64,000 nt of DNA from Fragilaria crotonensis (taxonomy: Eukaryota; Bacillariophyta; Fragilariophyceae; Fragilariales; Fragilariaceae): NCBI GenBank assembly GCA_022925895.1, contig JAKSYS010000024.1, positions 124,001 to 188,000 of the forward strand, written 5' to 3'. The position numbers and the translations under genes are program-made. Below the pieces are notes generated by a model that was not told the origin of the DNA, searched no databases, and saw nothing but the letters and a program-made list of their open reading frames with translations. Position 1 is the stretch's first letter. Each line of letters begins with the position of its first letter. Shown piece after piece: positions 14,520 to 42,299 of the stretch.

Positions 14520-15886
14520 GGCCGTTGTTATACAAGAAAATAAAACATTGAAGTTTTGAAGTTTCGAACATTCATAACCTATTATCTATCGGGTTATGAA
14601 TGTTCGAAACTTCATTCGACCTTGTACATTATTATACGGCAAAACAAAATATTGAAGTTTTGAAGTACAATTATTTCAAGGTCACTCTCGTTTGACCGAT
14701 CCCTTACCAGGCACACTTACTCGAATCTGCACTTAAACGAGTACAAATGATGCATCCTCTCTTGTTACCTTCCTCCTTCTTCAGCTTCTGAAGCAAGGAC
14801 GTGTATCTCTACAAGCAGCATGAGTCTTTTACAAGGAGAGACAACAGTAGAGACGACGAGCGAGGACACCAGACCCGGAGACGACGAACCGTGTATCATT
14901 CGAATCCCGACTCAATTTCTTGACGTCCTCGCTGGTCGTATCTCACTCAATCTCGGTCGGATCAAGATGAAGGACATTGATTTGAGACCGGGCGATTCAC
15001 ACGCAACTTTCTGTCCAATCAGATTATGTTGTGGCCTTTATTTGAAGGAGTCCGAGTGATATTTGTATTATCACGGTGCGGTCCGAGTCCGGACTCGATT
15101 TCTTGACGTCCTCGCTTGTCGTATCTCACTCAATCTTGGTCGGATCGAGATGCACGACATTGATTTGAGACCGGGCAATTCACACACAACTTTCTGTCAA
15201 CTTAGATTATGTTGCAGCCTTTATTTGAAGGAGTCCGAGTGATATTTGTATTATCACGGTGCGGTCCGAGTCCGTACTCCGCATCTTGACGTCCTCGCTG
15301 GTCGCATCTCACTCAATCTTCGTCGGATTGAGATGAAAGGCATTGATTTGAGACCGGGAGATTCACACGCAACTTTTTGTCTCCTCAGATTTATGTTGTA
15401 GTCTTAGTTGAAATAGACGTACTAGCACTACTATTGCAATTATTGTATCATCACGGTGTGCTCGGCTCAATTTCCAGCAGTCATATCTGGTCATACCTCG
15501 CTCAATCTCGCTCGGATTGAGAAAAGTAAAGTTGATTTGAGACCGGGTGATTCACACGCAACTTTCTGTCTCCTCGCTCATCATTGGTTGGATCATGCTG
15601 GAGATGAGGGCTCTCCAACTTGCAGATTCTCATCGCAGTTGGTGAGTTGGAGAGATAGCCCAAACATTCCTACATGAAATACACGCAACAGGTGTACTGG
15701 AGCAATAGGTTATGAATGTTCGAAACTCCGAACTTGAATGTTTTGGCCGTGGCCACTTCAATTTTTTGAGGGGGCATGTCGACCTCATGGATTTCGAAGT
15801 TTCGAACATTCATAACCTATTGAATAGGTTATGAATGTTCGAAACTTCAAAACTTCAATGTTTTTTTTTCTTGTATAACAACGGCC
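14520..15886. mobile_element. Harbinger-like MITE / foldback element with TTA target duplication
   Basis: A 1367-bp element bounded by terminal inverted repeats of roughly 65 bp. The left end begins GGCCGTTGTTATACAAGAAA and continues ...AAACATTGAAGTTTTGAAG... to about 14584; the right end (about 15822-15886) is its reverse complement apart from a short homopolymer difference. Both sides are flanked by TTA (14517-14519 and 15887-15889). A 3-bp TTA duplication is typical of PIF/Harbinger elements. Each terminal region also folds on itself through ATGAATGTTCGAAACTTC-type arms, with internal copies near 15705-15730 and 15793-15820. There is no transposase, so the element is non-autonomous. Its interior holds four 183-bp tandem repeats. 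Confidence 0.8.
14909..15640 (+). repeat. Four diverged ~183-bp tandem repeats inside the MITE
   Basis: Units start near 14909, 15092, 15275 and 15462. Each contains CTTGACGTCCTCGCTGGTCG-like DNA (weak in the last), a CTCACTCAATCT core, TTGATTTGAGACCGGG and TTCACACGCAACTTT. One frame of units 1 and 4 reads ISLNLGRI...DLRPGDSHATFC, and the ORFs at 14820-15059 and 15456-15677 include it. I do not regard these as proven genes. Units diverge mostly by substitutions. Confidence 0.8.
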
Positions 15887-16056: not shown

Positions 16057-16085
16057 CAGCTTAGTGATCTTTCCCTGGTTTGACC

Positions 16086-17341
16086 ATGTCTACCAAACTT
16101 CCTAGTGTCAATGACACTTACTTCCAGCACAAGGTGCTTACCAGAGTTCATGGCCAGCCCACCTACGAAACTCTACAGACTCTCGCTACCGAGATCAAGG
16201 CCAACGCCTCTTCTGTGCCCTCCACGCTCGGAGGCGGCCAATACGGCCACCTCGGACTCATTCTGTCCGCCGACCGTTACGCCACTTTGGCGCATACCGT
16301 CCCTTGGATTAGTCCTCCTAATCCAGGCCCATTCGATCCACCTGCTAACGGCACTGGCCCGCAAATTGAAGCCGCCAAAGATGTCTGGCGCGAACTTAAA
16401 CTCTCATTCGACCTCTGTCAAGCTACCGAAAAAGCGCTCATTGCGCAGATTGTCGAGTCTATTGATTCCATCTATCTACGAGCCCTGCTCAACCGCACTA
16501 CTGGCCAATACTCCTCCGATATTCGCGCTGTTCTAATGCATCTTTTCGCCACTCATGGGAAGATTACTCCTCAGCAAGTCAAGGCGAAGGAAATGTCCAC
16601 CTTCAACATGCACTATGACATCTCTCTCCCTGTTGACACTGTCTTCAACACTATCGACGATCTCGTTGATCTTGCCGAGCATGCTCTCTCTCCCATGACT
16701 CCCCAGCAAATGATGGATATGGCGTACGTTATTTTTGCACGCCAGCCCATTCTCCAGCAGGATCTCCGTCTTTGGAATCGACGTCCTCCTGCTGAACGCA
16801 CCTGGGCTAATATGCTCACTCACTTTCGTGACGCCCAGAGCGATCTCAGCTCTCTCCCGACTGCTGGTGACATCTTCCACCAACAGCCTGCCCACCAAGC
16901 CAATGCTGTTTCCGCTATGGCTGACCTTGTCGCCCAACGCCTTCTCGATACGCTTCCTCCGGACACATCTCCACCTGTCGCCCTTCCGACTGATGCTGCT
17001 AACGCCGCGTTTCAACTCCGTGATAGTGTTCTCGCTGCACGCGAGGCTGCTCTCCTCACTCAGATGTCTGAGATGATGTCCCTGCTACGAACCGGCTCTT
17101 CCTCTGGTAACGCTTCCTCTCAACGTGACACTCGTTCCTCCCGTGGTGGTCGCTCGGGCCGTTCCAATGGTCGTGGTCGTGGCCCCACTGCTCCCGCCCT
17201 CGCGCGTACTGCTGGTCCCATGGTGCCTGTGCACATCCCAGTTCGGAATGCAACCATCCGTTACCTGGCCATCAGACTGGTGCTACGTTTGCTACTATGC
17301 AAGGCGGCAGCACGACAAACTGTTTCTGGCTTCCCACCTGA
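16086..17341 (+). pseudogene. gag of copia element 1 (frameshifted near its 3' end)
   Basis: The first ATG is at 16086, 30 nt after the LTR. The capsid-like region is open to about 17200 and ends in an Arg/Gly-rich stretch. The zinc knuckle is then found in the frame one base back: YCWSHGACAHPSSECN followed by HPLPGHQ and a GGSTTNCFWLPT tail typical of diatom copia Gag. A single missing base between about 17160 and 17207 explains this. The knuckle frame closes with TGA at 17339-17341 and then continues open into the protease frame. Confidence 0.75.
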
Positions 17342-19330
17342 CAGTCCGGGCCTACTCTAGGGTATCATTTAGCGAATACGTTATCTCCCCCTTCTGTAGA
17401 CAGCCTGCCCACTCCTCACGTTCTTCTCGATTCTGGTGCCACTGGCACGTTCGTTGCCACGTCCGACGTCGTCCACCTACATCGTCCCGTTCCGGTCTCC
17501 AATGGCCCCACCGTTCTCTCGGCTAGCGGTGATGTTATGTCTTCTGCCCTTCACGGTCTCCTCCCACTATCCTCCCGTCTGAGTGCACAGGCGCAGTCTG
17601 CTTTTGTTCTCGATGGTCTCCGTACTGGTACTCTCGTCTCCCTTGCTCAGCTCTGTGACGACGACTGCATCGCTATTTTTTCCAAATTCGATGTCAAAAT
17701 AGTGAAGCGTGACACTGTCATCATCACTGGCACTCGCACCCCCAATGGTCTCTGGTCCATCCCTCTTGCTGCTCCTCCCCATCAGATTAATGGTATCCTT
17801 CGCCTTGATCGGTCTCGCGAAGCTCTTGCGATTTACCATCACACTGCCCTCGGTAGTCCCTCCCTTCTACGCTCCTACGCGCGATTCGTCGCGGTCATCT
17901 CACCAGTTTCCCTGGCCTTACTACTCAGCTAATAAGCAAACATCTTCCTAAATCAATCGCTACTACTCTTGGACACCAAGATCAGGAGGCCAAGAACATT
18001 CGTTCCACTCGCTCAGTCCCACCTTCCGAAGCTTTCACTTCTGATTCCGACACTGATGTTGCTCCTTACTTGCCCCCGCACTCATCACGTTTCCGTCGTG
18101 CTCCTTGAAAACCAGTCGCTCCTCAAGTCTTATTCCGACCAAACCGGTCGCTTCCACGTCCCGTCCAGTCGCGGTAACAATTATATCTTTGTCCTCTACC
18201 ACCAGGACACTAACTCTATTCACGCGGTCGCCATTCCGAATCGGCAGGCCGCCAGCATCCGCAATGCTTGGGAGACCACTCACAAGTTGCTTCTGCGCCA
18301 GGGCCATCCTCCTGATCTCCATATTCTTGACAACGAATGTTCTCAAGATCTCAAAGACGCCTTCACGAAATACAAGATCCAATTCCAGCGAGTTCCCCCC
18401 AAAGAACACCGTGCTAACGCAGCCGAACGTGCCATCCGGACGTTCAAGAATCATTTCGTTTCCGTCCTTTGCACCGTCCACTCTAAATTCCCTCTCACTG
18501 AGTGGGATCGGCTCTTGCCTCAAACGACGCTGACCCTCAATCTCCTTCGTTCTTCCCGCATTCATCCTTCGTTATCGGCTCATGCTTCCCTTTTCGGCAA
18601 CTACGATTTCAATCGCACGCCGCTCGCCCCCATGGGCACTCAAATCGTTGCACACACTTCAGCCGACACTCGCACCCCCTTCGGCGAACACGGTAAAGTC
18701 GGCTGGTACATTGGTCCTTCGCTTGAACATTACCGTTGTTGGAAGTGCTACTTTCAGGACACGATGCACGAACGCGATGTTCTCAAAGTTGATTTCTTCC
18801 CTGAAAAAATCGCGTTTCCCGAATTCTCTCGCGAAGATTATCTCCGCCAAACTGCCGAAGACATGCTTCATTTGTTGCACCCCCAGCACCCTACCGCTTT
18901 CCCTCTTCACGATCCTCTTTCCTTTGGCCCTCCCATCCTCAACGCTTACGCTAAAGTAGCCGACATCCTTCGTCGTGCAGTCCACCCTCTCTCCTCCGCT
19001 CCTATCGCACCTGTCCCTCCACCGACTCTCGCTCCTGTTGCACCTCCGAGGGTGCCGTCAGAAATCGCTGACCCTCCTCCTGCCCTACTCGCGTCTCCTC
19101 GTTCTGTCCTACCCCTTGCCCCTGTCTCACTTCCGAGGGTGCTCGTCTCCGCTTCCAGTAAACCGCTTCCGCTCCCTGCAGCCGTTCTCCGACAAAGCCC
19201 TCGCGCCCGCCTTACTCGCCTCATGTTCGACCCGCGCACTCATCGTCGCCTCCCTCTCGCCCAATCGATCCAACACGATCCCACCATTGCTGGCAAAATC
19301 CTACCACAGGCAAGCCCGAAACCATCGACT
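17342..19330 (+). pseudogene. Protease-integrase part of copia element 1 pol (several frameshifts)
   Basis: Directly after the TGA, the same frame reads a pepsin-like retroviral protease (HVLLDSGATGTF, active-site DSGA). A one-base deletion near 17868 moves the reading to RAIRRGHLTSFPGLTTQL and SIATTLGHQDQ, the usual pre-integrase region. A one-base gain near 18107 moves it to the integrase core: SDQTGRF, HILDNECS and NAAERAIRTFK supply the D, D and E catalytic residues. A one-base loss in an A-run near 19300 leads into RT. Downstream of integrase is a Pro-rich linker (about 19000-19200). The frames make the polyprotein unproducible as written. Confidence 0.75.
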
Positions 19331-21141
19331 CTCTCCTCCGCGGACCTGATTCCCTGATCTGGTCTAATTCCCTTTCCAACGAATGGGGCCGCTGCACCCA
19401 AGGCCTCACCAAATCCCGCTCCGTTGGTGACCAAATCCTCGGCAACAACACCATGGTTTTCATTCATCCCCATCAGGTCCCGGCCGGTCGCAAAGTCACC
19501 TACGCCAACTTCGTGTGCACCATGCGCCCTGGCAAAGCTGAGCCCTATCGTATTCGCATGACCGTCGGCGGCGACCGGCTTGACGCTTACCAAGATGTTC
19601 GATCTCCGGCCATCGGTCTTGTCGACACAAAGCTTCATCTCAACAGTGTCATTTCTGACGCTCACCTTGGTGCTCGCTATTGCACTGGCGATTTAAAGGA
19701 TTTTTTCCTCGTGTCTGATATGCCCATTTTCCAATACATGCGCATTCACCGCCGATATCTCACGGCCGAAGTCATTAGTGAGTACAATCTCACCGATCCG
19801 CATTTCGACTCCAAGGGTTATATCTACGTCGAAATCCGCAAGGGTATGTACGGCCTCAAGGAGGCTGCCATCCTTGCATACGATCAACTCAAAGCGCACC
19901 TCGCCCCCTACGGTTACTTCCCTGTCACACACACTCCCGGACTCTGGCGCCACACCGACCGTCGCACCACGTTCACTCTTGCGGTTGATGACTTTGGCAT
20001 CAAGTTCTTCTCTCAGTCAGATGCTGATCATCTCTTCGCCGCGCTTGCTACCAAGTATGCCCTCACCAAAGACTGGACTGGCTCCAGTTACCTCGGATTC
20101 AAGATCGCTTGGGACTACTCCGCCGGTCACGTTGACATCTCCATGCCAGGTTACGTACCCAAAGCACTTCTCGCCTTGCGTCATCCATCTCCCCTCCGAC
20201 CTCAGCATTCCCCGCATCTATGGACCGCTCCCGTGTACGGTCAGAAGGTTCAACTCGCGAACTCGGACATTTCCCCGCTTCTCGACAAACTCGGTATCAA
20301 ACGTGTGCAACAAATCTCTGGTCTCTTCCTCTATTACTCCCGCGGTTGCGATCCCACCATCATCGTCGCGTTGAACGAAATTTCCAACAGTCAAGCTGCT
20401 CCCACTGAACACACCAACAAAGCCTGTGACATGCTTCTTGATTACCTGTCCACGCATCCTGATGCCACGATTCGCTACCATGCCAGCGATATGGTCCTCG
20501 CTGTCTGCTCTGATGCTGCGTACCTTGTCCTTCCCAACGCTCGCAGTCGCGCTGCCGGCTATTTCTTCCTTACCAACCTTCCCAGCGCCACCAGCTCTCC
20601 TCCCAGCCCCAAACTCAACGGCGCTGTCCATGTTCTATGTAAGACCATCCGTACTGTTGCTGCCTCTGCTTCCGAAGCTGAAACCGGCAGTCTTTTCCTC
20701 AACGCTCAGGAAGCCGTTCCTATGCGTACTGCCCTTGCTGAAATGGGTCATCCACAGCCTTCTAGTGGTACTCCTCTTGAAACCGACAATTCCACTGCTC
20801 ACGGCATCCTCCACGCTCAAGTTCGCATGAAAAAATCAAAGGCCTTCGACATGCGCTATCATTGGCTCAAAGATCGTATTTCCCAAAAACACTTCAATCT
20901 CTACTGGAGTCCCGGCAAAACCAACAGTGCCGATTACTTTTCCAAGCACCACCCACCCGCCCATCACAAACTCATGCGTTCTCAGTATCTTCAGCGTGCT
21001 CTTGCCGCTCACGTCGCGCCGCCTACTGTGCGAGGGTGTGTTTCTCCCTACAGTAGTACCTCCGGGTTTCCCGATCCACAGATGACGTCACGTTGCGAGA
21101 CTCTAGACTCGCACTCACCACTCATCTCATTAATCTACTAA
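19331..21141 (+). CDS. Reverse transcriptase-RNase H part of copia element 1
   Basis: An open frame of about 600 residues starting in LLRGPDSLIWSNSLSNEWG. Copia RT motifs follow: TGDLKDFFL, KGMYGLKEAA and the catalytic VDDFGIKFF in place of YVDD. RNase H residues appear as CSDAAYL, ASEAETGS, ETDNSTAHG and KTNSADYFSKHH. The last ~34 codons and the stop lie inside the 3' LTR. There is no start of its own; it would be made only as part of Gag-Pol, which upstream frameshifts now prevent. An internal ATG at 19453 is unlikely to be used. Confidence 0.75.
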
Positions 21142-31412: not shown

Positions 31413-34400
31413 TCACTTTGGAACCTCCACATTCAGTTCGAGTAAACTTTCTGCTGCTGTTGCTGGTGCGTGATTGCCGTCATGAGAATCTCTACTAGTA
31501 GGACTGGATGCCCAAATCTCAACAGCTTCCTTGACGGCGCGAGCCTTAAGAAGCATCTCCTCGTATTCATCATCCGATTCGCTGAGCGCTGTAATGGCGC
31601 CGCCAGCGCCAATGCTGACCTTCCATCCATCATCGTCATCACCATCACCACCACCGTCAGTCAATGGTGTAACGACAATTGATCGAATAACAATGTTCAT
31701 ATCCATTCGTCCATTCAAACTTAGATATCCCAAACACCCCGCATACGGACCTCGACTGACTCCATCCTCCATTTCCTCCAGCAATTCCACAGTTCGTCGT
31801 TTGGGTGCACCCGTCATGCTGCCACCTGGAAAGCACGCAGTCAGAACGTCCAGAGCCGTCTTGTTCGACTCCAACACTCCTCGAATTGTGGATACCAATT
31901 GATGGACAGTCGCGTATGTTTCAATTGCCATGAGTTTGGGAACATGGACGGTACCCGTCTGACAGACGCGATTCAAATCGTTGCGCAACAAATCAACAAT
32001 CATGAGATTTTCCGCACGATTCTTGATGGACGTTTGCAATTCCAGTGCCACGACCGTGTCCATGAGAACAGTATTGTCGTCATGATTTGTAGTACTGCTG
32101 CTGCTATTGTTGCTGTTATTGGTGGAATGATATCGAGGTGCAGTCCCCTTGATGGGTTTTGCCTCAACAATAAAATCGTTGGTTTTGTCCGTGGACGGTC
32201 GCACCGATACGAATCGCTCAGGTGACGAACAACAAATGGTCATTTTGGCGCTCGGGCCCTCTTTCGGTGTTGTTGCTGTACCTTGAAAATTCACATATGC
32301 GGCAAATGGAGCAGGATTGCGGTTTCGTAGAATCTTGTACAATCGAAAGGGATCCAACATCGTCGAACTGGGAGCGACGACTGTTGCCTCCAATTGATTC
32401 GTCAAGCACAATTCGTATGATTCCCCCAATCGAATTTGTTCATGACAATTGGCAATATCGGCTTGGTACGCAGATCGAGACCGATTCGGAACAAAGTGGA
32501 GAGGCACTAAAGGCTTGGACTGTGGCAGCGGCTGCTGTTCTGGTTCCTTTGCTGTCCTTGTCATCGACATTGTCGACAGAGAACGCAAGATTTGTTCTGT
32601 ACTCGATATCCAATTAGTTGGGGACGACGTTGGTGTTGTCAATTCGATTAAATGCCAAGTATCCTTCCAATGATCGTAAATGAGACATTGATCGCAAAAC
32701 AAAAATGCGGCTGTGGGAACATGAGGATTGGTCGATGGTCGCGTTCTTGTGGCAGGGGGAGTATTGGAACGCGTCGGAGGCACATTGTCCATGTTTTCGA
32801 GTTGATCCAGTTTGCGTTGCGTATCACGCCGTACGTCGTAGCCTAAATAACCGAGATGACCACCAACAAAGGGCAAGTCTGCGGCATCAACATCATCATT
32901 ACCATCATAGATCAATTCCACGCCCTTATGATGTCGCTCGAGATAGTCCAAAACGTCCTCCACCGAGTCGTCCCTTTCCCTGGTGCCGTCGCTGTGAGTG
33001 ACATACACGCCTCGTGTTTCCCAATCGGCATGCTCTTGTCCATAGTAATCAATTCGTCGACTGAGAGGTCCCGTCATGCCAGCCAAAATGGAATATCGCG
33101 TCATGTTGTCCGCGTCGTCCGTATTGTTTTGTTGTTGTTGTTGCAAACTGGAATCTAACCAAATGGCAGGAAGGGATGCATTTTGGTGATATAATGCTTC
33201 AAAGGCTCTAGAAGTCGATACTCCCAAGCCAGTCAGGGTTCGAACGGACACTCGATACACCTGTGGTGGTTGTGGTGGTGGTGTAGCTTCTACCGTGGCA
33301 TACATGGCTGCCTCGATGATTCGAGGTGGAGGAATCATTCTGGCACGACGAGTGTCGGTATTTCGTTTGACACATGATTTCAAAAAGTTATCCATCATGG
33401 TCCGTCCATGTGGTGTTCCTATGCTTTCGGGATGAAACTGAACACCATATTGGGGCAAAGTCTTGTGTTGGAGTGCCATGATGACACATTCTCCAGTCGT
33501 TGGATCTGTGTACTGTGCCGTGACGGTAAGAGCATCGGGTATATCGTAAACTCCAAGAGAATGATAACGAGTGACTGGTATGGATTCTTCTGGAATTCCT
33601 TCCCATAACATAGAATCCGACGACGATATCAATTGAATGTCATGAACTTGTCCATGTACGGGTGTTAGACATTCTCGTACTGTGGCACCATGCACGTGTG
33701 CCAAGGCCTGATGTCCCAAGCACACTCCAAGGAGTGGCAATTGCAATTGAGTCGCATGTCGAATCCAATCCAAAGTGTATCCCATATCTTGAGGACAGGA
33801 GGGACGTCCAGGTCCTGGACTGAGGATAATGGCATCACAAGGAGGGAAATTTGGAACACGTTGATCAGTTTGTTGAGGATTGTCAAGGTCGCACGGCAAA
33901 AAATCCTTGGTGAGAACCAGCGGTGGTCGAGTGCAGAGACTTGCAATCATGTCGTAAAGATTGTAGGTATACGAATCGTAATGATCAATGAGAACGACTT
34001 GCAAATCGTACTTTGCTTGTTTAATTTCGATTGCGGCACCATTCATGCCATTCACACCATTAACACCATCACTGTGATGCCGTGAATGAGCTTTCAATAA
34101 TGTCGTCGTATCGGCATGCTGAAAGGATTGTACCGGTACTGGTAACACAGGTCGTTGAACGCCAGTACCAGAACGCCTACCAGAATCACCATTCTGCCGG
34201 GGTGCACGAATGAAGGCAGTCCTTGTACGGGTGCTGCGTGTCGTTGTGGTTCTTGCATGCCAATGTCCATGGACAAAGCTCGTGACCACTGGAGAGGGTT
34301 GTACCAATCCAAGTAGCAGTACAAGAAGTAATATACAGCATGTACGTTTCGTGCATTGATGCAACAACATTGTCGTCGGTGGTCGTTCACCCCGACCAAC

Positions 34401-34436
34401 AAGCAGTAATGACAATGAGCAAAGAGACCTGAACAT
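31413..34436 (-). CDS. Bifunctional aminodeoxychorismate synthase (PabA-PabB fusion), plastid-targeted
   Basis: About 1007 residues from the ATG at 34436, or 985 from the better-placed ATG at 34370. That second start gives a classical signal peptide (KRTCCILLLVLLLGLV) ending PVVTS/F, an ASAF-like diatom plastid site, followed by a basic Thr/Arg-rich transit peptide. The N-terminal half is a class I glutamine amidotransferase: LIDHYDSYTYN, SPGPGRP, GVCLGHQ (nucleophile Cys) and QFHPES (catalytic His/Glu). The C-terminal half is a chorismate-using synthase: KPIKGTAPR, ELQTSIKNRAENLMIVDLLRND and FPGGSMTGAPK. The Lys in PIKGT is diagnostic for aminodeoxychorismate synthase rather than anthranilate synthase. 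Its product leads to p-aminobenzoate and folate. A low-complexity Asn/Ser insert follows PIKGTAPR. A copia element begins 149 bp upstream of the first ATG. Confidence 0.9.
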   Translation of the reverse strand: MFRSLCSLSLLLVGRGERPPTTMLLHQCTKRTCCILLLVLLLGLVQPSPVVTSFVHGHWHARTTTTRSTRTRTAFIRAPRQNGDSGRRSGTGVQRPVLPVPVQSFQHADTTTLLKAHSRHHSDGVNGVNGMNGAAIEIKQAKYDLQVVLIDHYDSYTYNLYDMIASLCTRPPLVLTKDFLPCDLDNPQQTDQRVPNFPPCDAIILSPGPGRPSCPQDMGYTLDWIRHATQLQLPLLGVCLGHQALAHVHGATVRECLTPVHGQVHDIQLISSSDSMLWEGIPEESIPVTRYHSLGVYDIPDALTVTAQYTDPTTGECVIMALQHKTLPQYGVQFHPESIGTPHGRTMMDNFLKSCVKRNTDTRRARMIPPPRIIEAAMYATVEATPPPQPPQVYRVSVRTLTGLGVSTSRAFEALYHQNASLPAIWLDSSLQQQQQNNTDDADNMTRYSILAGMTGPLSRRIDYYGQEHADWETRGVYVTHSDGTRERDDSVEDVLDYLERHHKGVELIYDGNDDVDAADLPFVGGHLGYLGYDVRRDTQRKLDQLENMDNVPPTRSNTPPATRTRPSTNPHVPTAAFLFCDQCLIYDHWKDTWHLIELTTPTSSPTNWISSTEQILRSLSTMSMTRTAKEPEQQPLPQSKPLVPLHFVPNRSRSAYQADIANCHEQIRLGESYELCLTNQLEATVVAPSSTMLDPFRLYKILRNRNPAPFAAYVNFQGTATTPKEGPSAKMTICCSSPERFVSVRPSTDKTNDFIVEAKPIKGTAPRYHSTNNSNNSSSSTTNHDDNTVLMDTVVALELQTSIKNRAENLMIVDLLRNDLNRVCQTGTVHVPKLMAIETYATVHQLVSTIRGVLESNKTALDVLTACFPGGSMTGAPKRRTVELLEEMEDGVSRGPYAGCLGYLSLNGRMDMNIVIRSIVVTPLTDGGGDGDDDDGWKVSIGAGGAITALSESDDEYEEMLLKARAVKEAVEIWASSPTSRDSHDGNHAPATAAESLLELNVEVPK

Positions 34437-34584
34437 GATGAATAGAAACAAAATCGCCTCTTTATGTCAGGGTCATCATCATTCGTGTTCTTTCGTATAT
34501 TCTTCTTGTTGTTCTTGCTATTGCTGTCGGTAGAATCAATTGATGTTCGATGTGGTCAGGTCAATGCGTTGAATGCTGAGGTGG

Positions 34585-35007
34585 TAAACGAATAACGGCA
34601 TTGCGATCGTGCGTCAGCCGTTTGGGCATCATGTCACAAACTCTCAAATCGAGATGTCTCGAGTTTCACAGGACATATGAACACGTCACGAGATATTTAC
34701 AGTACTTACGAATAGCGTGCGTACGAGCAGGTCTAAGCGCATAAGAGGAAGTCGGTAGGTATCGCCCGGTGTCTACGCAAGTTCGAGAAGGCCGATATCA
34801 CGAGCCGAGCTTCGATGGGCGTTCCTTGTGGATAACTCATCACTATTCCACAAGGAAATAACAAGGGATTACATATGATTGGTTCAAACATCGGAAGGCG
34901 ATGTCAAGTCCACTATCCTTGCATTTTTACAAATAACTTATATTTTTAAAACTACTACTTTGGGAACTAGATCCCCAATTCGTTGCTCAAGCGCATCGAT
35001 TTGTTTA
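34585..35007 (+). repeat. 5' LTR of copia element 2
   Basis: 423 bp, starting TAAACGAATAAC and ending GATTTGTTTA; the 5-bp ends are inverted complements. The primer-binding site must lie in the 35 nt between the LTR and the gag ATG, but no standard TGG-initiated site is evident there. Confidence 0.95.
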
Positions 35008-35042
35008 CGCTTCCTCTGCGCTTTTAGTAAGTTACAACCAAG

Positions 35043-36266
35043 ATGGCTGATCCTGCGGCAGGAGCACAGCCTCCGATGATCCGCTTCGCATTGTCGCCAG
35101 CTCTAGCAAACCGAGATGTGCTTGATTATAATCAAGTAGCTGCGGCAAAAGTCTACGTCGCAGCATCCTCGCCAGTTTCGATCGAGTTCGATTGTAAGCC
35201 AGAGAATCTACAACTCTTCCTCGACCAAGTCAGGGACAGAGCCATCGCCCATGAATGGCAACACATTCTCCTCATCCCGAAGGACGGAAATGAAGCCGAA
35301 TCCAGGGATCTGATTGACTCCTATGGGGAGTTATCTTATGAAGATGTCAAGGCGCATGTTCTTACATACGTCGACACCGAGTCCAGGGAAGCACAAGACT
35401 CATTCATGATGTACTTATGCATCATGAGCTCCCTATCCAAGTCTGCCCAGCGACAAGTTCGACTCAGGGGCAAACAACACCCTTTCCAGCTTGCGGAGAC
35501 AGGCTCGGGACCACTTCTCCTGAAAGTCGTGATCATGGTCTCACATGTAGACACCCGAGCCACAATCAACTCAGTGCGCACGAAGATGTCCAGCCTCGAC
35601 CAGTCCATGAGAAACCTCGAGTCAGATATCGAGAAATTCAACGAGTATGTCATCGGACTAGTCGAACAACTCCAAGCCCGCGGACAAGAGACCCAAGACT
35701 TGTTGGTGAACCTTTTCAAAGGGTACAAGGCGTGCAAGGACCTCGAGTTCGTTGACTACATCAAGAAGAAAGAAGACTTGTACGAAGAAGGGGGAGACGT
35801 CTCTACTGAGCAACTCATGGAGTGGGCACTGAACAAGTTCAAGACTCGCCAAGAGAATCTCACCTGGTGTCAGAAATCAGACGAGGAAGAGACCATCATT
35901 GCGCTCCAGGCGCAAGTTCAGTCCCTCATCCACAAGACTAAGGGAAAGGCCAACGACAGTGCGGAAAAGAAGAAAGTCAAAGGAAATACCAAGTCCAGAA
36001 ATGACTATCGTGCACCGTGGATGAAAGAACCTCCAAAAGAAGGAGAAACCACAACCAAGGACGTTGATGGAAAGCAGTGGCATTGGTGTTTGACTCACGA
36101 TGCGTGGGTACGTCACAAACCAGAAGAGTGCAAGGGACTTGGGTTCAGGGCGAATAACCCCAACCCCACTCCAGCGATTGGAAAATCGGGGCCGGTAATG
36201 AGACTCTCCAACGCCCTCTCTGCCATCGATAACGACGAGGATGATAACGATGACAATGACGAGTGA
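35043..36266 (+). CDS. gag: Gag of copia element 2
   Basis: 407 residues, ATG in an AAG context just after the LTR. The largely helical capsid region includes a coiled-coil-like segment (MSSLDQSMRNLESDIEKF) and LVNLFKGYKAC. A Cys/His cluster near the end (WHWCLTHDAWVRHKPEECKG) resembles the atypical zinc knuckle of diatom copia Gag. The C-terminus is very acidic (NDEDDNDDNDE). It ends in TGA (36264-36266) followed by CGG and a stem-loop, with the pol frame continuing directly. Confidence 0.9.
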   Translation: MADPAAGAQPPMIRFALSPALANRDVLDYNQVAAAKVYVAASSPVSIEFDCKPENLQLFLDQVRDRAIAHEWQHILLIPKDGNEAESRDLIDSYGELSYEDVKAHVLTYVDTESREAQDSFMMYLCIMSSLSKSAQRQVRLRGKQHPFQLAETGSGPLLLKVVIMVSHVDTRATINSVRTKMSSLDQSMRNLESDIEKFNEYVIGLVEQLQARGQETQDLLVNLFKGYKACKDLEFVDYIKKKEDLYEEGGDVSTEQLMEWALNKFKTRQENLTWCQKSDEEETIIALQAQVQSLIHKTKGKANDSAEKKKVKGNTKSRNDYRAPWMKEPPKEGETTTKDVDGKQWHWCLTHDAWVRHKPEECKGLGFRANNPNPTPAIGKSGPVMRLSNALSAIDNDEDDNDDNDE

Positions 36267-36298
36267 CGGGTAGGCCCAACGCATTCGTGCGTTGGGCC
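36264..36298 (+). promoter_or_regulatory. Putative stop-codon readthrough signal: UGA-CGG plus UUCG stem-loop
   Basis: The gag stop TGA (36264-36266) is followed by CGG, then after 6 nt in total by a perfect inverted repeat. The arms are 36273-36283 (GGCCCAACGCA) and 36288-36298, exactly complementary over 11 bp, with the tetraloop TTCG at 36284-36287. The frame stays open from the codon after TGA through 36312 and all of pol. UGA-CGG with a structure about 8 nt downstream is the known type II readthrough arrangement of several plant viruses. Use in this element is inferred. Confidence 0.75.
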
Positions 36299-36311
36299 AT
36301 GGCGGCAAACC

Positions 36312-39300
36312 ATGCAAATCTCAATGTTGGGAATTCTACCTTTCCCGGTAATCCTGGGACAATGGGCAGCATGGATCACCGTCATAGCTCTCGCCACGAC
36401 CTACATGTATACATACATGATTGACAACAAGGAAGAGTTAGAGGGGGTAATCTATAGATTACGAGTGAACTCTTTATTCAAGTCAAGGTCTGTGTGGGAG
36501 ATTGTCGAAAATATCACCGGCCAAGTATGGGGAGTCGTCGACGAATTCGTTAGGACAAACTGCAAAGTGGACAAGACAAGGAGGTATCATCAGAAAATCA
36601 CGATCAAGAGGTCCAAGGCGACACCACCGAAGTTTCGGAATCGAGGTCCAAGGAGGATGAGCAACGTCCGGAAGACCAAGAGGCGGCCCTACGAACGCGT
36701 CCTGACGGCAATGTCAGCCATCATGGCGTTGAGCGCCACCAAAGTGAAGCCAAGGTTCCTGACTCGATTCGATTCGGATTCCAAACCGATCCGTGTCGAT
36801 AATTGCGCGTCATTCTGCATTTCGAATGATATCAAAGATTTTATCTCCGCCCTCACTCCTATCCAAAGGAAACTAAAAGGGATAGGCGGCCTCCTCGGTA
36901 ACATTCAATCGGGTACCCTTCAATGGGACATTGAAGACGATATGGGTCGGACGCATCAGATACGGATACCTAATTCGCTTTATGTCCCAGACTCCCCGTC
37001 AAGATTGCTCTCCCCTCAACACTGGGCACAAGAGTCTAATGACGTGCGTCCGAACCCGAGGGGAACTTGGTGCGCTACCTACCATGACAAAGTGGTACTA
37101 CATTGGGATCAACGACAATTCCAACGAACGCTTTCCCTTGATCGGAATGCGTCCAACGTCGCCACGCTATACACAGCATCCAGTTATGTCAATTATTCCG
37201 TGTTCTGCGCGGAATGCGACGGTGACGAGCCCAATAGCATCGTGGCATTCGATATTAATCTCATCTCGGATGAAGAGGAAGGCGAAGAACGGGGCCCAGC
37301 GAAGGAAGTCGACATCGAAGCGGCGAAGCAATTCGTTCACCAAGAAGTCGAAGCGACGTGGCCGGAAGGCCAAACTTCTCCGTCAGGGTTCGATTTTGAC
37401 CAACCTCGCCGGTCAATCATCCCATCAGAGTCTGCCGAACAAGAGAACAGGGACGTGCGTAATGACGTCATGACGGAGTTTACTCACGTGCATCAACGAC
37501 TGGGACATTTGCCACCCGCCAAGATCCAAAAGATGGCCGCAGCCGGATTATTACCGCGAAGATTGGCAAAGTGTCAAGTTCCGGCGTGCCGCAGCTGTCT
37601 CTTCGGGCAAGCTACCCGTCGACCGTGGAGGAGCAAACCCAAGAAAGGGGAGACTCCAGGAAAATTGCGGACGGCTTCCCAACCCGGACAGTGCGTCAGC
37701 GTCGATCAGCTTGAGTCTACCACGCCTGGTCTAATCGCTCAGATGAAGGGGTGGCTTACGAAGAAACGCTACCGGGTAGCGACTATATTCGTCGACCATT
37801 TCAGCGGTCTGTCCTATGTTCATTTACAGAAGACTACCAATGCAGCTGAGACTCTCGAGGCCAAGGTAGCATTCGAACGCTTTGCTCAGCGACACAATGT
37901 AAAGATTACTCAGTACCAAGCTGACAATGGACGTTTTGCGGAGACAGTCTTTCTGGAACATGTGCGACAGTCACACCAAACTATCACGTACTGCGGGGTC
38001 AACGCGCACTTCCAAAACGCGGTCGCCGAAAGGCGGATCCGAGTCTTACAAGACCGGGCGCGAACCATGTTGCTTCATGCGAAGCAGCGATGGCCGTCGG
38101 CGGTGGAGTCTTACTTGTGGCCCTACGCTATCCGACTCACCAACGAGATACACAACGCCACTCCAGACATCACGCGGCATGATCTGAAGTCCCCCCTTGA
38201 GTTGTTTACAAGCACGGCGGTGACTCCGGATCTGGGACATTTCCGACCGTTCGCGTGCCCGGTCTACGTCCTCGACAACGCGATGCAGCAAGGCAAGAAA
38301 ATTGACAAGTGGGAGGCACGATCCCGCATTGGCTTGTATCTAGGAATGTCAATGGTTCATGCTCGCAGTGTCGCACTCGTGCTTAACCTGACCACGGGAC
38401 ACGTATCGCCTCAATTTCATTTGAAATTCGACACACACTTTGACACAGTTCGGGCTATTGCGCCGCAACCGACGGTATGGCAACAAGCATGCTACTTCCG
38501 CCCATATACTTCATTGGTAAAAGCCAAGACTCACCGTTCCAGAGGGAGGACCAACGAAGATGTCGAATCCCCACTACGCAACGACGAGGAAGAGGATCAA
38601 CAACGAAACGACAGTCACGGCGAACAATTTCGGCCCGAAGGAGCGACTCCTACGCAAACTTCCAATCAGGAGGGAATAGACAACGAACCTTCCCCAAATA
38701 TCGATCAGGTGGATGGCAGGCGACGTTCCGGGCGCACGAGGCCAGGGTCGATACTCGACCGTGAGGGTATTTGGGTGACCATGGAAGCACAATTGGAGCT
38801 CGATCAACCGTACCATGTGGCATTTGAAGTGTTGAGAGAGCCGCAAGAAGATCCAGACGATCCCCATCCTCTCAAAGCATATGCAGCCTCCGCAGATCCA
38901 GATACGATGTATTATCACGAAGCCATGAAGGCGCCCGATAAGGACAATTTCGTAGCAGCGATGCGACAAGAGGTTCAGTCACATACAGACAACGAAGTTT
39001 GGGAAATCGTTCCTTCCGCTTCGGTCCCAGAGGGAGTGAAAGTATTACCATCAGTCTGGGCGATGAAACGAAAGAGAAAAATAGCGACGCGGGAAGTTTA
39101 CAAATGGAAGGCCCGACTTAATATCGACGGTTCCAAACAAGAACATGGCGTCAACTTTTGGGAGACGTTCAGTCCAGTGGCATCATGGGCAGCTATACGG
39201 ATGGTCCTCATTGCCGCATTACTAAATGGGTGGCAGACCCGGCAGGTCGACTTCGTACTCGCGTATACTCAAGCCGACGTGGAATGTGAGTTGTATATGA

Positions 39301-40508
39301 AAATGCCAAAGGGATTTGAGATGTCCAAGGAAGGCGAGTTTGTCTTGAAACTAAAGAAGAACCTCTTCGGACAGAAACAAGCGGGTCGAGTATGGAACAA
39401 TCACCTGGTGAACAAACTCCACTCCATCGGGTTCAGGTCCAGTGCGATCGACGAATGCCTATTTTATAAAGGCAAAAGTGTCTTCGTTTTATACACCGAC
39501 GACTCAATTCTGGCCGGCCCAGATCCCATAGAACTCGACGACATCCTCAAACAAATGAAGGAATGCGGACTCAATCTTACCGTCGAAGGAGACATTACTG
39601 ACTTCCTGGGGGTCCAGATCGATCGAGTAAAAGGAGGAAAGTTCAGACTCTCTCAGCCTCATCTCATTGAAGACATCTTGAAGGAATTAAGGCTCGAAGG
39701 AACCAACGTGACTACCAAAACTACCCCAGGGGCATCAAGTCAACCGCTACTGCGACATCCAACGTCAGATCCCTTCGACGGGCATTTCGATTATCGAAGG
39801 GTCATAGGCAAAATGAATTATCTGGAGAAGTGCTCCAGGCCCGATATTTCCAGTGCAGTGCATCAATGTGCCAGGTTTGTCGCAGATCCCAAGGTCGAAC
39901 ACGGAAAAGCCCTTAAGTGGATCGGACGATATCTTGCGGCGTCCAAAGACAAAGGGATCATTTACAGTCCAAAACTCAAGGCAGGGTTTGAAGTGTATGT
40001 CGACGCGTCGTTTTGCAATAATTGGGAACCGGACACGGCGGAATGGGATCCGGACACGGCGAGATCTAGGACTGGCTACGTGATCATGATCGCGGGCTGT
40101 CCCATAGTGTGGGCATCCAAGTTGCAAACCGAAGTAGCACTATCTACCACCGAGAGTGAATACATTGCGTTGTCTACGGCTACTCGTGAAGTACTACCAT
40201 TGATGGAACTCATTCGGGAAATGCATCAGTTCGGATGTTGGAAGCAAAGTTTGCGGCCCATTTTTCATTGTAAAGTTTTCGAAGACAACAGTGGAGCTAT
40301 CTACTTGGCAACAGGGGTGAAGCATCCCAAGATGCGGCCACGGACAAAACATATCAACATAAAGTATCATCACTTTCGCGCGAAGGTCATGGATGGCACT
40401 CTGTCCATTCATCAGGTGCCCACAGAGGAAATGCTCGCAGACTTGTTGACTAAAAATTGCACCGAAGCCATTTTACTTCACCTTCGACCCATATTAATGG
40501 GATGGTAA
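36312..40508 (+). CDS. pol: Pol polyprotein of copia element 2 (protease, integrase, RT, RNase H)
   Basis: 1398 residues from the first ATG; likely produced by readthrough from Gag because the upstream 45 nt are open in the same frame. The first ~35 residues are strongly hydrophobic (PFPVILGQWAAWITVIALA). The protease site reads VDNCASFCISND, with DNCA in place of D(S/T)GA. The HHCC zinc-binding region is HVHQRLGH...CQVPACRSC. Integrase D,D,E: SVDQLES, YQADNGRF and NAVAERRIR. RT: RQVDFVLAYTQA and the catalytic YTDDS. RNase H: VYVDASF, STTESEYIALS, FEDNSGAIYLA, HINIKYHHFR and MLADLLTK. All catalytic parts look intact. There is a small internal repeat EPDTAEWDPDTARS. Confidence 0.92.
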   Translation: MQISMLGILPFPVILGQWAAWITVIALATTYMYTYMIDNKEELEGVIYRLRVNSLFKSRSVWEIVENITGQVWGVVDEFVRTNCKVDKTRRYHQKITIKRSKATPPKFRNRGPRRMSNVRKTKRRPYERVLTAMSAIMALSATKVKPRFLTRFDSDSKPIRVDNCASFCISNDIKDFISALTPIQRKLKGIGGLLGNIQSGTLQWDIEDDMGRTHQIRIPNSLYVPDSPSRLLSPQHWAQESNDVRPNPRGTWCATYHDKVVLHWDQRQFQRTLSLDRNASNVATLYTASSYVNYSVFCAECDGDEPNSIVAFDINLISDEEEGEERGPAKEVDIEAAKQFVHQEVEATWPEGQTSPSGFDFDQPRRSIIPSESAEQENRDVRNDVMTEFTHVHQRLGHLPPAKIQKMAAAGLLPRRLAKCQVPACRSCLFGQATRRPWRSKPKKGETPGKLRTASQPGQCVSVDQLESTTPGLIAQMKGWLTKKRYRVATIFVDHFSGLSYVHLQKTTNAAETLEAKVAFERFAQRHNVKITQYQADNGRFAETVFLEHVRQSHQTITYCGVNAHFQNAVAERRIRVLQDRARTMLLHAKQRWPSAVESYLWPYAIRLTNEIHNATPDITRHDLKSPLELFTSTAVTPDLGHFRPFACPVYVLDNAMQQGKKIDKWEARSRIGLYLGMSMVHARSVALVLNLTTGHVSPQFHLKFDTHFDTVRAIAPQPTVWQQACYFRPYTSLVKAKTHRSRGRTNEDVESPLRNDEEEDQQRNDSHGEQFRPEGATPTQTSNQEGIDNEPSPNIDQVDGRRRSGRTRPGSILDREGIWVTMEAQLELDQPYHVAFEVLREPQEDPDDPHPLKAYAASADPDTMYYHEAMKAPDKDNFVAAMRQEVQSHTDNEVWEIVPSASVPEGVKVLPSVWAMKRKRKIATREVYKWKARLNIDGSKQEHGVNFWETFSPVASWAAIRMVLIAALLNGWQTRQVDFVLAYTQADVECELYMKMPKGFEMSKEGEFVLKLKKNLFGQKQAGRVWNNHLVNKLHSIGFRSSAIDECLFYKGKSVFVLYTDDSILAGPDPIELDDILKQMKECGLNLTVEGDITDFLGVQIDRVKGGKFRLSQPHLIEDILKELRLEGTNVTTKTTPGASSQPLLRHPTSDPFDGHFDYRRVIGKMNYLEKCSRPDISSAVHQCARFVADPKVEHGKALKWIGRYLAASKDKGIIYSPKLKAGFEVYVDASFCNNWEPDTAEWDPDTARSRTGYVIMIAGCPIVWASKLQTEVALSTTESEYIALSTATREVLPLMELIREMHQFGCWKQSLRPIFHCKVFEDNSGAIYLATGVKHPKMRPRTKHINIKYHHFRAKVMDGTLSIHQVPTEEMLADLLTKNCTEAILLHLRPILMGW

Positions 40509-40519
40509 TCATCTCTCAC

Positions 40520-40528
40520 GAGAGGGAG
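40520..40528 (+). other. Polypurine tract of copia element 2
   Basis: GAGAGGGAG lies immediately before the 3' LTR, the expected plus-strand primer site. Confidence 0.8.
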
Positions 40529-40952
40529 TAAACGAATAACGGCATTGCGATCGTGCGTCAGCCGTTTGGGCATCATGTCACAAACTCTCAAATCGAGATG
40601 TCTCGAGTTTCACAGGACATATGAACACGTCACGAGATATTTACAGTACTTACGAATAGCGTGCGTACGAGCAGGTCTAAGCGCATAAGAGGAAGTCGGT
40701 AGGTATCGCCCGGTGTCTACGCAAGTTCGAGAAGGCCGATATCACGAGCCGAGCTTCGATGGGCGTTCCTTGTGGATAACTCATCACTATTCCACAAGGA
40801 AATAACAAGGGATTACATATGATTGGTTCAAACATCGGAAGGCGATGTCAAGTCCACTATCCTTGCATTTTTACAAATAACTTATATTTTTAAAAACTAC
40901 TACTTTGGGAACTAGATCCCCAATTCGTTGCTCAAGCGCATCGATTTGTTTA
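40529..40952 (+). repeat. 3' LTR of copia element 2
   Basis: 424 bp, with the same termini as the 5' LTR. It has one extra A in the A-run near 40891-40896. It is followed by the GGTGG target duplication. Confidence 0.95.
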
Positions 40953-40957
40953 GGTGG

Positions 40958-42299
40958 ATGTTGGCATTATCGGAACTTGTGAGCCAGCAGTCTCAAAATG
41001 TGATGGCGTGCGGAATCACAATGCACAATATTTTGCATGCTCGTATGTACTCGTCCGCTGTACGAGCAAATGTAGTACTACCCTAGGACACTACTGTCGT
41101 AGCCTGAGGAATCGAATGGAATTGGATGAACTCGTGGGAGGAGGAGGGCGGAGGAAGCAAAGAGAGCGAAGAATCCGTGGCGATGGCGTGGCACAGGGCG
41201 ACGCAGCGTAACACAGGGCGCGCTGTGCGGAAATCGGAACAGAAAATGAAGAACGTGCCGCTCTGGTGTGGGTTCCAGGATCTTGCCCATATCATATTCA
41301 CCCACTGCCCACTGCCCACCCACGTCGGATGGTGGTTGGCTCTTCGTGGTGGAGGAACGTGTGCGTCTCAAATCATGAGTCAGATTGAGCTCAGTACCAG
41401 TACGACAGTATTACTGGTACAAGAATCGAACTACTACTGTGATACTACACTACTAGCCTTCTGTAGTACTCGAGCACGCTCCAAAAATTTGATTATCGTA
41501 GAGCTCGTCTATTCATTAATCCGCATTACAACATTCCTACCGTCACTTAGTACTAGGTTCTACAGCACCCGACTACAGGTTATGTAGTGGTTAGTGCAGG
41601 TACATACGACAGTAGGACAGTAAGGTATCAATTGTATACTGTAGTATTCACAGTACTCTACTCTAGTAGAGTACAATAATACTACACAGAGTATGAATAC
41701 CACCGTATTACACTTCAACAGAGAGACGCTTTTTCACTTTCTACATCATAGTATGATAGTAGTCTACTGTCAACTGTCAACTACCATTCGGAGTTCGGAG
41801 TAAATGCGCCAGAGTACGCGGCATGAGAATGATGATGATGATGTCATGACAACATATGATAAAATTGAGACAACTCTGCTTAAACTGCACTTTCATGTTT
41901 CATGCTTCACCATTCACCAGGGACCCCGAGCGCAGGATTGTTGAGAGTGGCAAATGGCAAGTGATAACCAGGTGTAATATGCTACTTGGTTAGGTTGCTG
42001 TGGTGTTGAAGCTTGAAACATCTGACGATCTCACACTCCGTTCAATCACAGACTGATTATATATCATATTCATGTCATACTCGTAGTGCATACTACAGCA
42101 TCTCATATCGCCCATCGCCCATCGCCCATCACTCTCATTCTGGTCAGTGGTGAAGTCATAAGCTACCAGGTACAAGTGCTGCGCACTCTAGTATAACACG
42201 ACAATCTGCTCGCCTCGCAGTCCCCGAGCATATTTCTTGGTAGAAAGAAGATACTTGAGACGACTAGCCGTGCCTGATACGAGCATTTTGTTCCGCAAA
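40958..42299. other. Intergenic, AGTACT-rich
   Basis: No gene. 41400-41480 and 41560-41800 are rich in GTAC words (AGTACTCTACTCTAGTAGAGTAC near 41650). The first ~150 bp are the displaced upstream region of the ADC synthase gene, separated from it by the copia insertion. 42105-42130 has a short CGCCCAT tandem. Confidence 0.45.

Follow-up and report, generated by a model that had tools for sequence, protein, structure and literature searches.

The gag-pol junction studied here, in a window of 64,000 nucleotides of genomic DNA from Fragilaria crotonensis, is that of a young, structurally intact diatom copia retrotransposon. Gag ends at an in-frame stop codon, pol continues in the same frame, and a hairpin begins a few bases past the stop. 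In related junctions the distance from stop to helix is kept, the helix changes by compensation between families, and the downstream frame is under coding constraint. From these observed features we infer that the stop is read through, at some limited frequency, and that termination is the step on which the hairpin acts. Very probably the gag stop is subject to programmed readthrough that the hairpin stimulates, and this would set the ratio of Gag to Gag-Pol.

The element occupies positions 34585-40952 of the window on the forward strand (6.4 kb) and is flanked by a GGTGG target-site duplication, read from the sequence at 34580-34584 (forward strand) and 40953-40957. Alignment of the two LTRs with each other placed the 5' LTR (TAAACG...TTGTTTA, 423 bp) at 34585-35007 and the 3' LTR (424 bp) at 40529-40952, both on the forward strand. 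The original prediction called them near-identical, and they are: all 423 aligned bases agree, with one 1-base indel. Because of this identity and the duplication of GGTGG at both ends, we consider the element young. The purine run GAGAGGGAG lies directly before the 3' LTR.

Gag is an open reading frame of 407 amino acids (35043-36266, forward strand) with an acidic C-terminus and a UGA end; the window gag had no match in Pfam. The pol frame (36267-40508, forward strand) extends from the gag stop to a TAA at 40506-40508. It is the same frame as gag and has no further stop before that TAA, in agreement with the original prediction. A copia-type reverse transcriptase was identified at 38991-39728 on the forward strand (RVT_2, Pfam PF07727, E 1.9e-42). 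Within one translated piece of pol, RVT_2 covers residues 508-753 and SH3_retrovirus residues 252-322; since SH3_retrovirus is upstream of RVT_2, the integrase precedes the reverse transcriptase, which is the copia order. The integrase core and RNase H gave no Pfam match in pol. A DNCAS motif read from the pol frame at 36798-36812 (forward strand) is presumably the protease motif of this element. The RVT_2 reverse transcriptase, the integrase domain upstream of it, the LTRs and the target duplication together assign the element to Ty1/copia.

Several other features of the window and the genome were observed in passing. Adjoining the element on the reverse strand (31413-34451) is a single frame of 1012 amino acids that encodes a fused anthranilate synthase; its domains are glutamine amidotransferase, anthranilate synthase N-terminal and chorismate-binding. 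A second retroelement-like region, at 16080-21141, has open frames of 426, 462 and 562 amino acids; the third gave a weak, sub-threshold RVT_2 match, and the gag and pol studied here matched none of the three. Just upstream of that copia-like region is a perfect 25-bp inverted repeat with a 3-nt loop (15796-15848; -35.7 kcal/mol as RNA), longer than any other perfect hairpin found in the window. Silicon transporters mark the host as a diatom: the genome yielded 19 matches to this family, of which 18 exceed the cut-off, including three tandem domains in one open frame of 1456 amino acids (C97:29749-33762) and two tandem domains in C771.

The codons at the end of the window gag are GAG-UGA-CGG. 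The stop, which is the proposed readthrough site, is at 36264-36266 (forward strand), and direct reading confirmed both that gag terminates in UGA-CGG and that a perfect 11-bp inverted repeat capped by UUCG begins 6 nt past the UGA. On the forward strand, a spacer of 6 nt, CGGGTA (36267-36272), separates the stop from the 5' arm, GGCCCAACGCA (36273-36283), which forms 11 Watson-Crick pairs with the 3' arm, TGCGTTGGGCC (36288-36298), across the UUCG loop (36284-36287). The hairpin as a whole spans 36273-36298. The extra-stable form of this tetraloop is C(UUCG)G; the closing pair in the window is A-U, so its loop is not of the extra-stable type.

Within the 6.4 kb of the element, the junction hairpin is the sole perfect hairpin of at least 10 bp (loop of 3-8). 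Its dinucleotide shuffles (n=200) contained 0.04 hairpins of at least 10 bp and 0.005 of at least 11 bp per element, and the fraction of random sequences with a hairpin of at least 10 bp at +6/+7 was 0.0006. The minimum-energy segment among 6,330 segments of 45 nt along the element begins at 36264. The fold of the 101-nt stretch 36240-36340 is only moderately better than those of shuffled sequences (z -1.67), 14 of 200 shuffles being equal or better, and little weight is placed on it.

Related junctions were sought in the assembly to which the window belongs (62.1 Mb, 881 contigs), and the DNA comparisons therefore cover one genome. A search with the window gag gave 106 matches, many of them only pieces and often several to an element. 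We read the gag-pol junction at 63 loci; further gag pieces exist beyond these, and outside the 63 are six elements with no stop (L091-L095 and L104), four with no readable junction (L102, L103, L105 and L108) and one with no gag end (L040). Sister copies lacking the stop were a check on the original prediction, and there are none among the readable junctions: gag ends in a stop in all 63 (60 UGA and 3 UAG), of which 59 were located by a gag motif or by reading in all frames and four (L006, L007, L030 and L054) only by a search pattern in which TGA was obligatory. The context is UGA-UGG in 35 junctions, UGA-CGG in 17, UGA-CUN in 8 (none of them CUA) and UAG in 3. What had been expected to be conserved was UGA-CGG; it is the stop that is conserved, and the following codon varies, with UGA-UGG in the largest group. 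The three UAG copies, L083 (C744), L087 (C871) and L096 (C545), all have the context UAG-GGA and form clade C of the gag tree described below.

The helix begins 6-7 nt after the stop in 60 of the 63 junctions, and the other three (L029, L030 and L083) have 1-base indels in the spacer. The distance is 6 nt in clades B and C and in the window, and 7 nt in the rest of clade A; one clade C copy has a 1-base deletion in an otherwise equal spacing. The copies share ancestry, and the junction counts are therefore not independent trials. The weight of the case is carried by the separate helix sequences and by the switch of stop codon.

A midpoint-rooted tree of 20 gags, for which the program warned of long branches meeting, above all that of clade C, had the stop-bearing elements split from three fused single-ORF elements. 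Clade A comprises the window, C377, the large UGA-UGG group and C354 (UGA-CUG). The contexts in clade B are UGA-CGG or UGA-CUC/CUU, and the context in clade C is UAG-GGA. The gag of C377 is about 92% identical to that of the window; the corresponding values are 55-62% in the rest of clade A, 36-40% in clade B and 35% in clade C. The nearest copy, C377, looks dead, because it has a second in-frame stop, a TAG at the 12th codon past the UGA, and further stops within its gag and pol matches; its stem differs from that of the window by one base. In the six distant elements without a stop, gag reads on through the stretch examined, and in one such element, C293, a single frame extends over 1801 residues.

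The helices of the three clades differ in sequence and in form, those of clades A and C being compact hairpins of 10-12 bp and that of clade B a two-part stem of 57-81 nt in all. The clade A stem is GGCCCAACGCA/UGCGUUGGGCC in the window type, GCCCAAUGGAC/GUUCAUUGGGC in the UGA-UGG group and GCCCAAGGGAC/GUCCUUUGGGC in C354. Matched to its own 3' arm, the window-type 5' arm forms 11 of 11 pairs; matched to the 3' arms of the other types, it forms 5 or 6. Counted from GCCC, pair 7 is C-G, U-A or G-U, and pair 9 is C-G, G-U or G-C. All scored pairs are kept in 37 of 40 clade A copies (L030 was left out of the scoring), and 10 of 11 are kept in L019 and L101; the latter, a UGA-CGG copy on C818, has one stem mismatch.

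The clade B stem consists of an outer GGGU/ACCC and an inner GGRCY paired with GGYCU or a close variant, with a 2-base bulge between them. Of the 104 pairs in eight families, 92 are canonical, and sliding the partner by 1-3 bases reduces this number to 34-57. When the 3' arms were permuted among the eight families, with one row per family, 83.5 +- 2.4 pairs were canonical and 92 was reached in 6 of 5,000 permutations. Pair 7 is A-U in five of nine rows and G-C in four, and pair 11 occurs as four canonical types; pairing in the upper stem is less regular (4/9 at pair 13, for example). These pair tables omit L075, which has one motif base change, and L085, which is cut by the end of its stretch. 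In clade C the stem is GGCCAAGGCACC/GGUGUCUUGGCC, a hairpin of 11-12 bp, and an additional outer pairing, GAACA/UGUUC, is predicted in L087, L096 and L083. Random substitution in the stem had been named as a sign against the predicted module, and the substitutions are not random: changes between families are compensatory. With a stop at every readable junction and these compensatory changes, the sequence comparisons support the reading of the junction as a putative readthrough cassette.

Stop and stem are conserved where their flanks diverge. Any two of the UGA-UGG rows L005, L009 and L012 agree at all but one of the 30 bases counted from the stop. In an ungapped comparison of 15-base blocks, the same rows have 3-12 differences upstream and 2-11 from +45 on, where indels inflate the differences. 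L073 and L090 of clade B1 remain similar until just beyond the stem, after which the similarity disappears. Between the window and C377, dN/dS is 0.24 over 426 post-stop codons, and the 12 hairpin codons have zero synonymous changes and one amino-acid change. For the first 75 post-stop codons in clade B, dN/dS is below 1 with p<0.05 in two of nine comparisons, and one ratio exceeds 1.

We propose that the gag UGA would stop most ribosomes, yielding Gag. In a minority of them a near-cognate tRNA would decode the UGA and translation would proceed in the same frame into pol, producing a small amount of Gag-Pol. The helix, with its base 6-7 nt past the stop, would be the stimulator; it would be encountered at the ribosome entrance when the stop occupies the A site, and readthrough would thereby be favoured over release. 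UGA-U, which the largest copy group uses, is not known as a favoured readthrough context.

Frameshifting was rejected, given that gag and pol are in one frame. The main rival is termination followed by reinitiation, or internal initiation, with Pol starting at a nearby AUG and the hairpin either holding the ribosome or shielding that AUG. The first in-frame AUG is indeed close to the stop in some elements, the distance being 12 nt for those UGA-UGG rows that were examined, 24-30 nt for three of the B families and 45 nt for the window (36312), and in the available part of the Tca2 report a minor promoter in the junction drove downstream expression in yeast (PMC2194720). The AUG has no fixed place, however. 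Five of seven B1 copies have no in-frame AUG over the 223-259 nt examined and have an out-of-frame AUG at 173, and in B2, B7 and clade C the in-frame AUG is at least 135 nt away or absent from the stretch examined. In the window (at 36299), B2, B7 and clade C, an out-of-frame AUG precedes the in-frame one. With a first in-frame AUG that ranges from 12 nt to beyond 223-259 nt, and out-of-frame AUGs ahead of it, reinitiation is weakened as an explanation, and the features that are conserved are instead the frame and the distance of 6-7 nt from the stop. We regard it as unlikely.

The hairpin could also serve the RNA itself, in packaging, dimerisation or reverse transcription, with the stop bypassed in some other way. 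A structured element in a genomic RNA may have several roles, and its fold alone does not tell them apart, but the distance from stop to helix is 6-7 nt in all three clades, across helices that differ in sequence, length and loop. This constancy points to the terminating ribosome, and a role confined to the RNA is improbable. Differential splicing that takes the stop out of part of the RNAs could draw on the GT dinucleotides found near the stop in several families and on seven possible frame-keeping GT-AG pairs around the stop of the window. There is no conserved donor, however, since four of 15 rows have no GT within 45 nt upstream of the stop and its position varies in the others, and under splicing the kept distance from stop to stem would have no reason; we consider this very improbable. 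Decoding of the UGA as selenocysteine would be compatible with the 60 UGA junctions, but in clade C a UAG occupies this position, with the same spacing. An Rfam scan of 34500-41100 at E values up to 10 gave two matches, neither of which is a SECIS and each of which scores far below its gathering score, and we give selenocysteine almost no credence. Selenocysteine, splicing and reinitiation were thus rejected as main explanations on the SECIS and UAG, donor, and AUG evidence, respectively, and hairpin-stimulated readthrough is the reading that we retain.

Copia elements have mostly been described as having a single ORF or as frameshifting; Tca2 belongs to Ty1/copia, and the sireviruses are also copia members. 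In Tca2 of Candida albicans, gag and pol are split by a UGA with a possible pseudoknot, and the junction alone directed no readthrough in Saccharomyces cerevisiae, according to the available part of the report (PMC2194720). Because of that result, resemblance to known signals is not proof. Tca2 and the window element share a gag-pol UGA and a possible 3' RNA structure, but there the structure is one proposed pseudoknot and here hairpins covary across families (PMC2194720). The original prediction held that a readthrough module would be unusual for copia. Tca2 provides a precedent for the gag-pol UGA, and the novelty lies in the covarying-hairpin copia group, which, judged by its sequences, is a new variant of known readthrough arrangements. 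The gag-pol junction of sireviruses, as described in the accessible sections of that work, also has a stem of 11 bp that covaries and carries a 4-nt loop; pol there lies in the +1 frame and the frames overlap, in contrast to the one frame split by a stop found here (PMC5009743).

Type II readthrough is described, in the portion of the source available, as UGA-CGG with a stem-loop a few bases downstream (PMC3542737). The window junction resembles the type II signals of alphaviruses, tobraviruses, furoviruses and coltiviruses in its UGA-CGG, same-frame extension and 3' stem-loop; it differs in that the host element is a diatom copia, the stem begins at 6-7 nt rather than about 8, the structure is a compact 10-12 bp hairpin (A, C) or a 57-81 nt two-part stem (B), and relatives have UGA-UGG, UGA-CUN or UAG-GGA at the same spacing (PMC3542737). 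A type II context (UGA-CGG or UGA-CUA) is present in the window and in 17 of the 63 junctions, and not in all relatives. The window's stem-loop, after 6 nt, is slightly closer to the stop than the type II distance of about 8 nt, and the same-frame extension is accompanied by downstream constraint that is clear over the whole of pol and, in clade B, weak over the first 75 codons. The type II label given to the junction in the original prediction therefore suits the window and does not extend to the clade as a whole, in which UGA-UGG, UGA-CUG/CUC/CUU and the type III-like UAG-GGA occur. The UAG-G of type III is absent from the window and present in L083, L087 and L096. Gammaretroviral type III signals likewise yield Gag-Pol by readthrough of a gag stop, but they have a pseudoknot and an 8-nt spacer, as far as the available text describes them, whereas clade C, with its UAG-G, has a simple hairpin of 11-12 bp and a 6-nt spacer (PMC3542737).

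The fission yeast elements Tj1, Tosmo and Tcry1 also have an in-frame UGA between gag and pol, there after GAA, and the Tj1 stop is required for efficient transposition; unlike the element studied here, they are Ty3/gypsy elements with a conserved UGA-CTA/CTG, and the available parts of the two papers describe no hairpin at the stop (PMC4600332, PMC10085805). The CoDi elements are copia elements of diatoms, and the word "readthrough" is absent from the main text of the CoDi paper, the accessible portion of which mentions no hairpin (PMC2806351). In the open-licence literature we found no paper that analyses a readthrough signal in a retroelement of a diatom.

Homologues outside this genome are protein sequences. 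Public protein sets contained 205 homologues of gag and 175 of pol, 120 of each being listed, and no Gag domain was present among the 120 listed pol homologues. The four nearest full-length gags listed (P0001-P0004; 81-99% identity) end at 407-413 amino acids and have the same acidic tail. These ends agree with a conserved stop and are not proof of it; P0001 may come from the same species as the window. Viral contigs gave no relatives, whether queried with gag, with pol, with nine aligned gags or with a degenerate pattern of the junction, and prokaryote genome contigs gave none with the gag alignment.

Between the gag stop and the protease motif is a hydrophobic segment, possibly membrane-spanning, which a hydropathy scan placed at 36333-36389 on the forward strand (Kyte-Doolittle 1.72 over 19 residues). 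A 19-residue stretch with a hydropathy of at least 1.6 occurs within the first 75 post-stop residues in 13 of 17 rows; the rows below this value are L009 (0.98), L012 (1.35), L018 (-0.41) and L101 (0.55). Among the first 60 of the 120 listed pol homologues, several from other sources start with a similar stretch, and P0140 starts with LLGW, as do B2 and B3 after their stop. Such stretches at the start of outside pol homologues are only a lead. One tentative proposal is that the module arose long ago and defines the clade, with the in-frame stop and a helix base at 6-7 nt as its sole fixed parts, while the identity of the stop, the next codon and the fold turn over. Readthrough might then add a membrane-seeking segment in many families, both setting the dose of Pol and targeting Gag-Pol to the membrane; we think this combined reading rather doubtful.

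In the literature searched, Tca2 was the sole case of a copia element with a UGA between gag and pol, and by the available part of its description its junction gave no working readthrough signal in yeast. The diatom copia group comprises dozens of copies with several hairpin sequences, two stop codons, six next-codon contexts and a kept spacing. It may serve as a natural mutation series for the question of what a readthrough stimulator must provide, and its junctions would be ready-made reporters for diatom translation.
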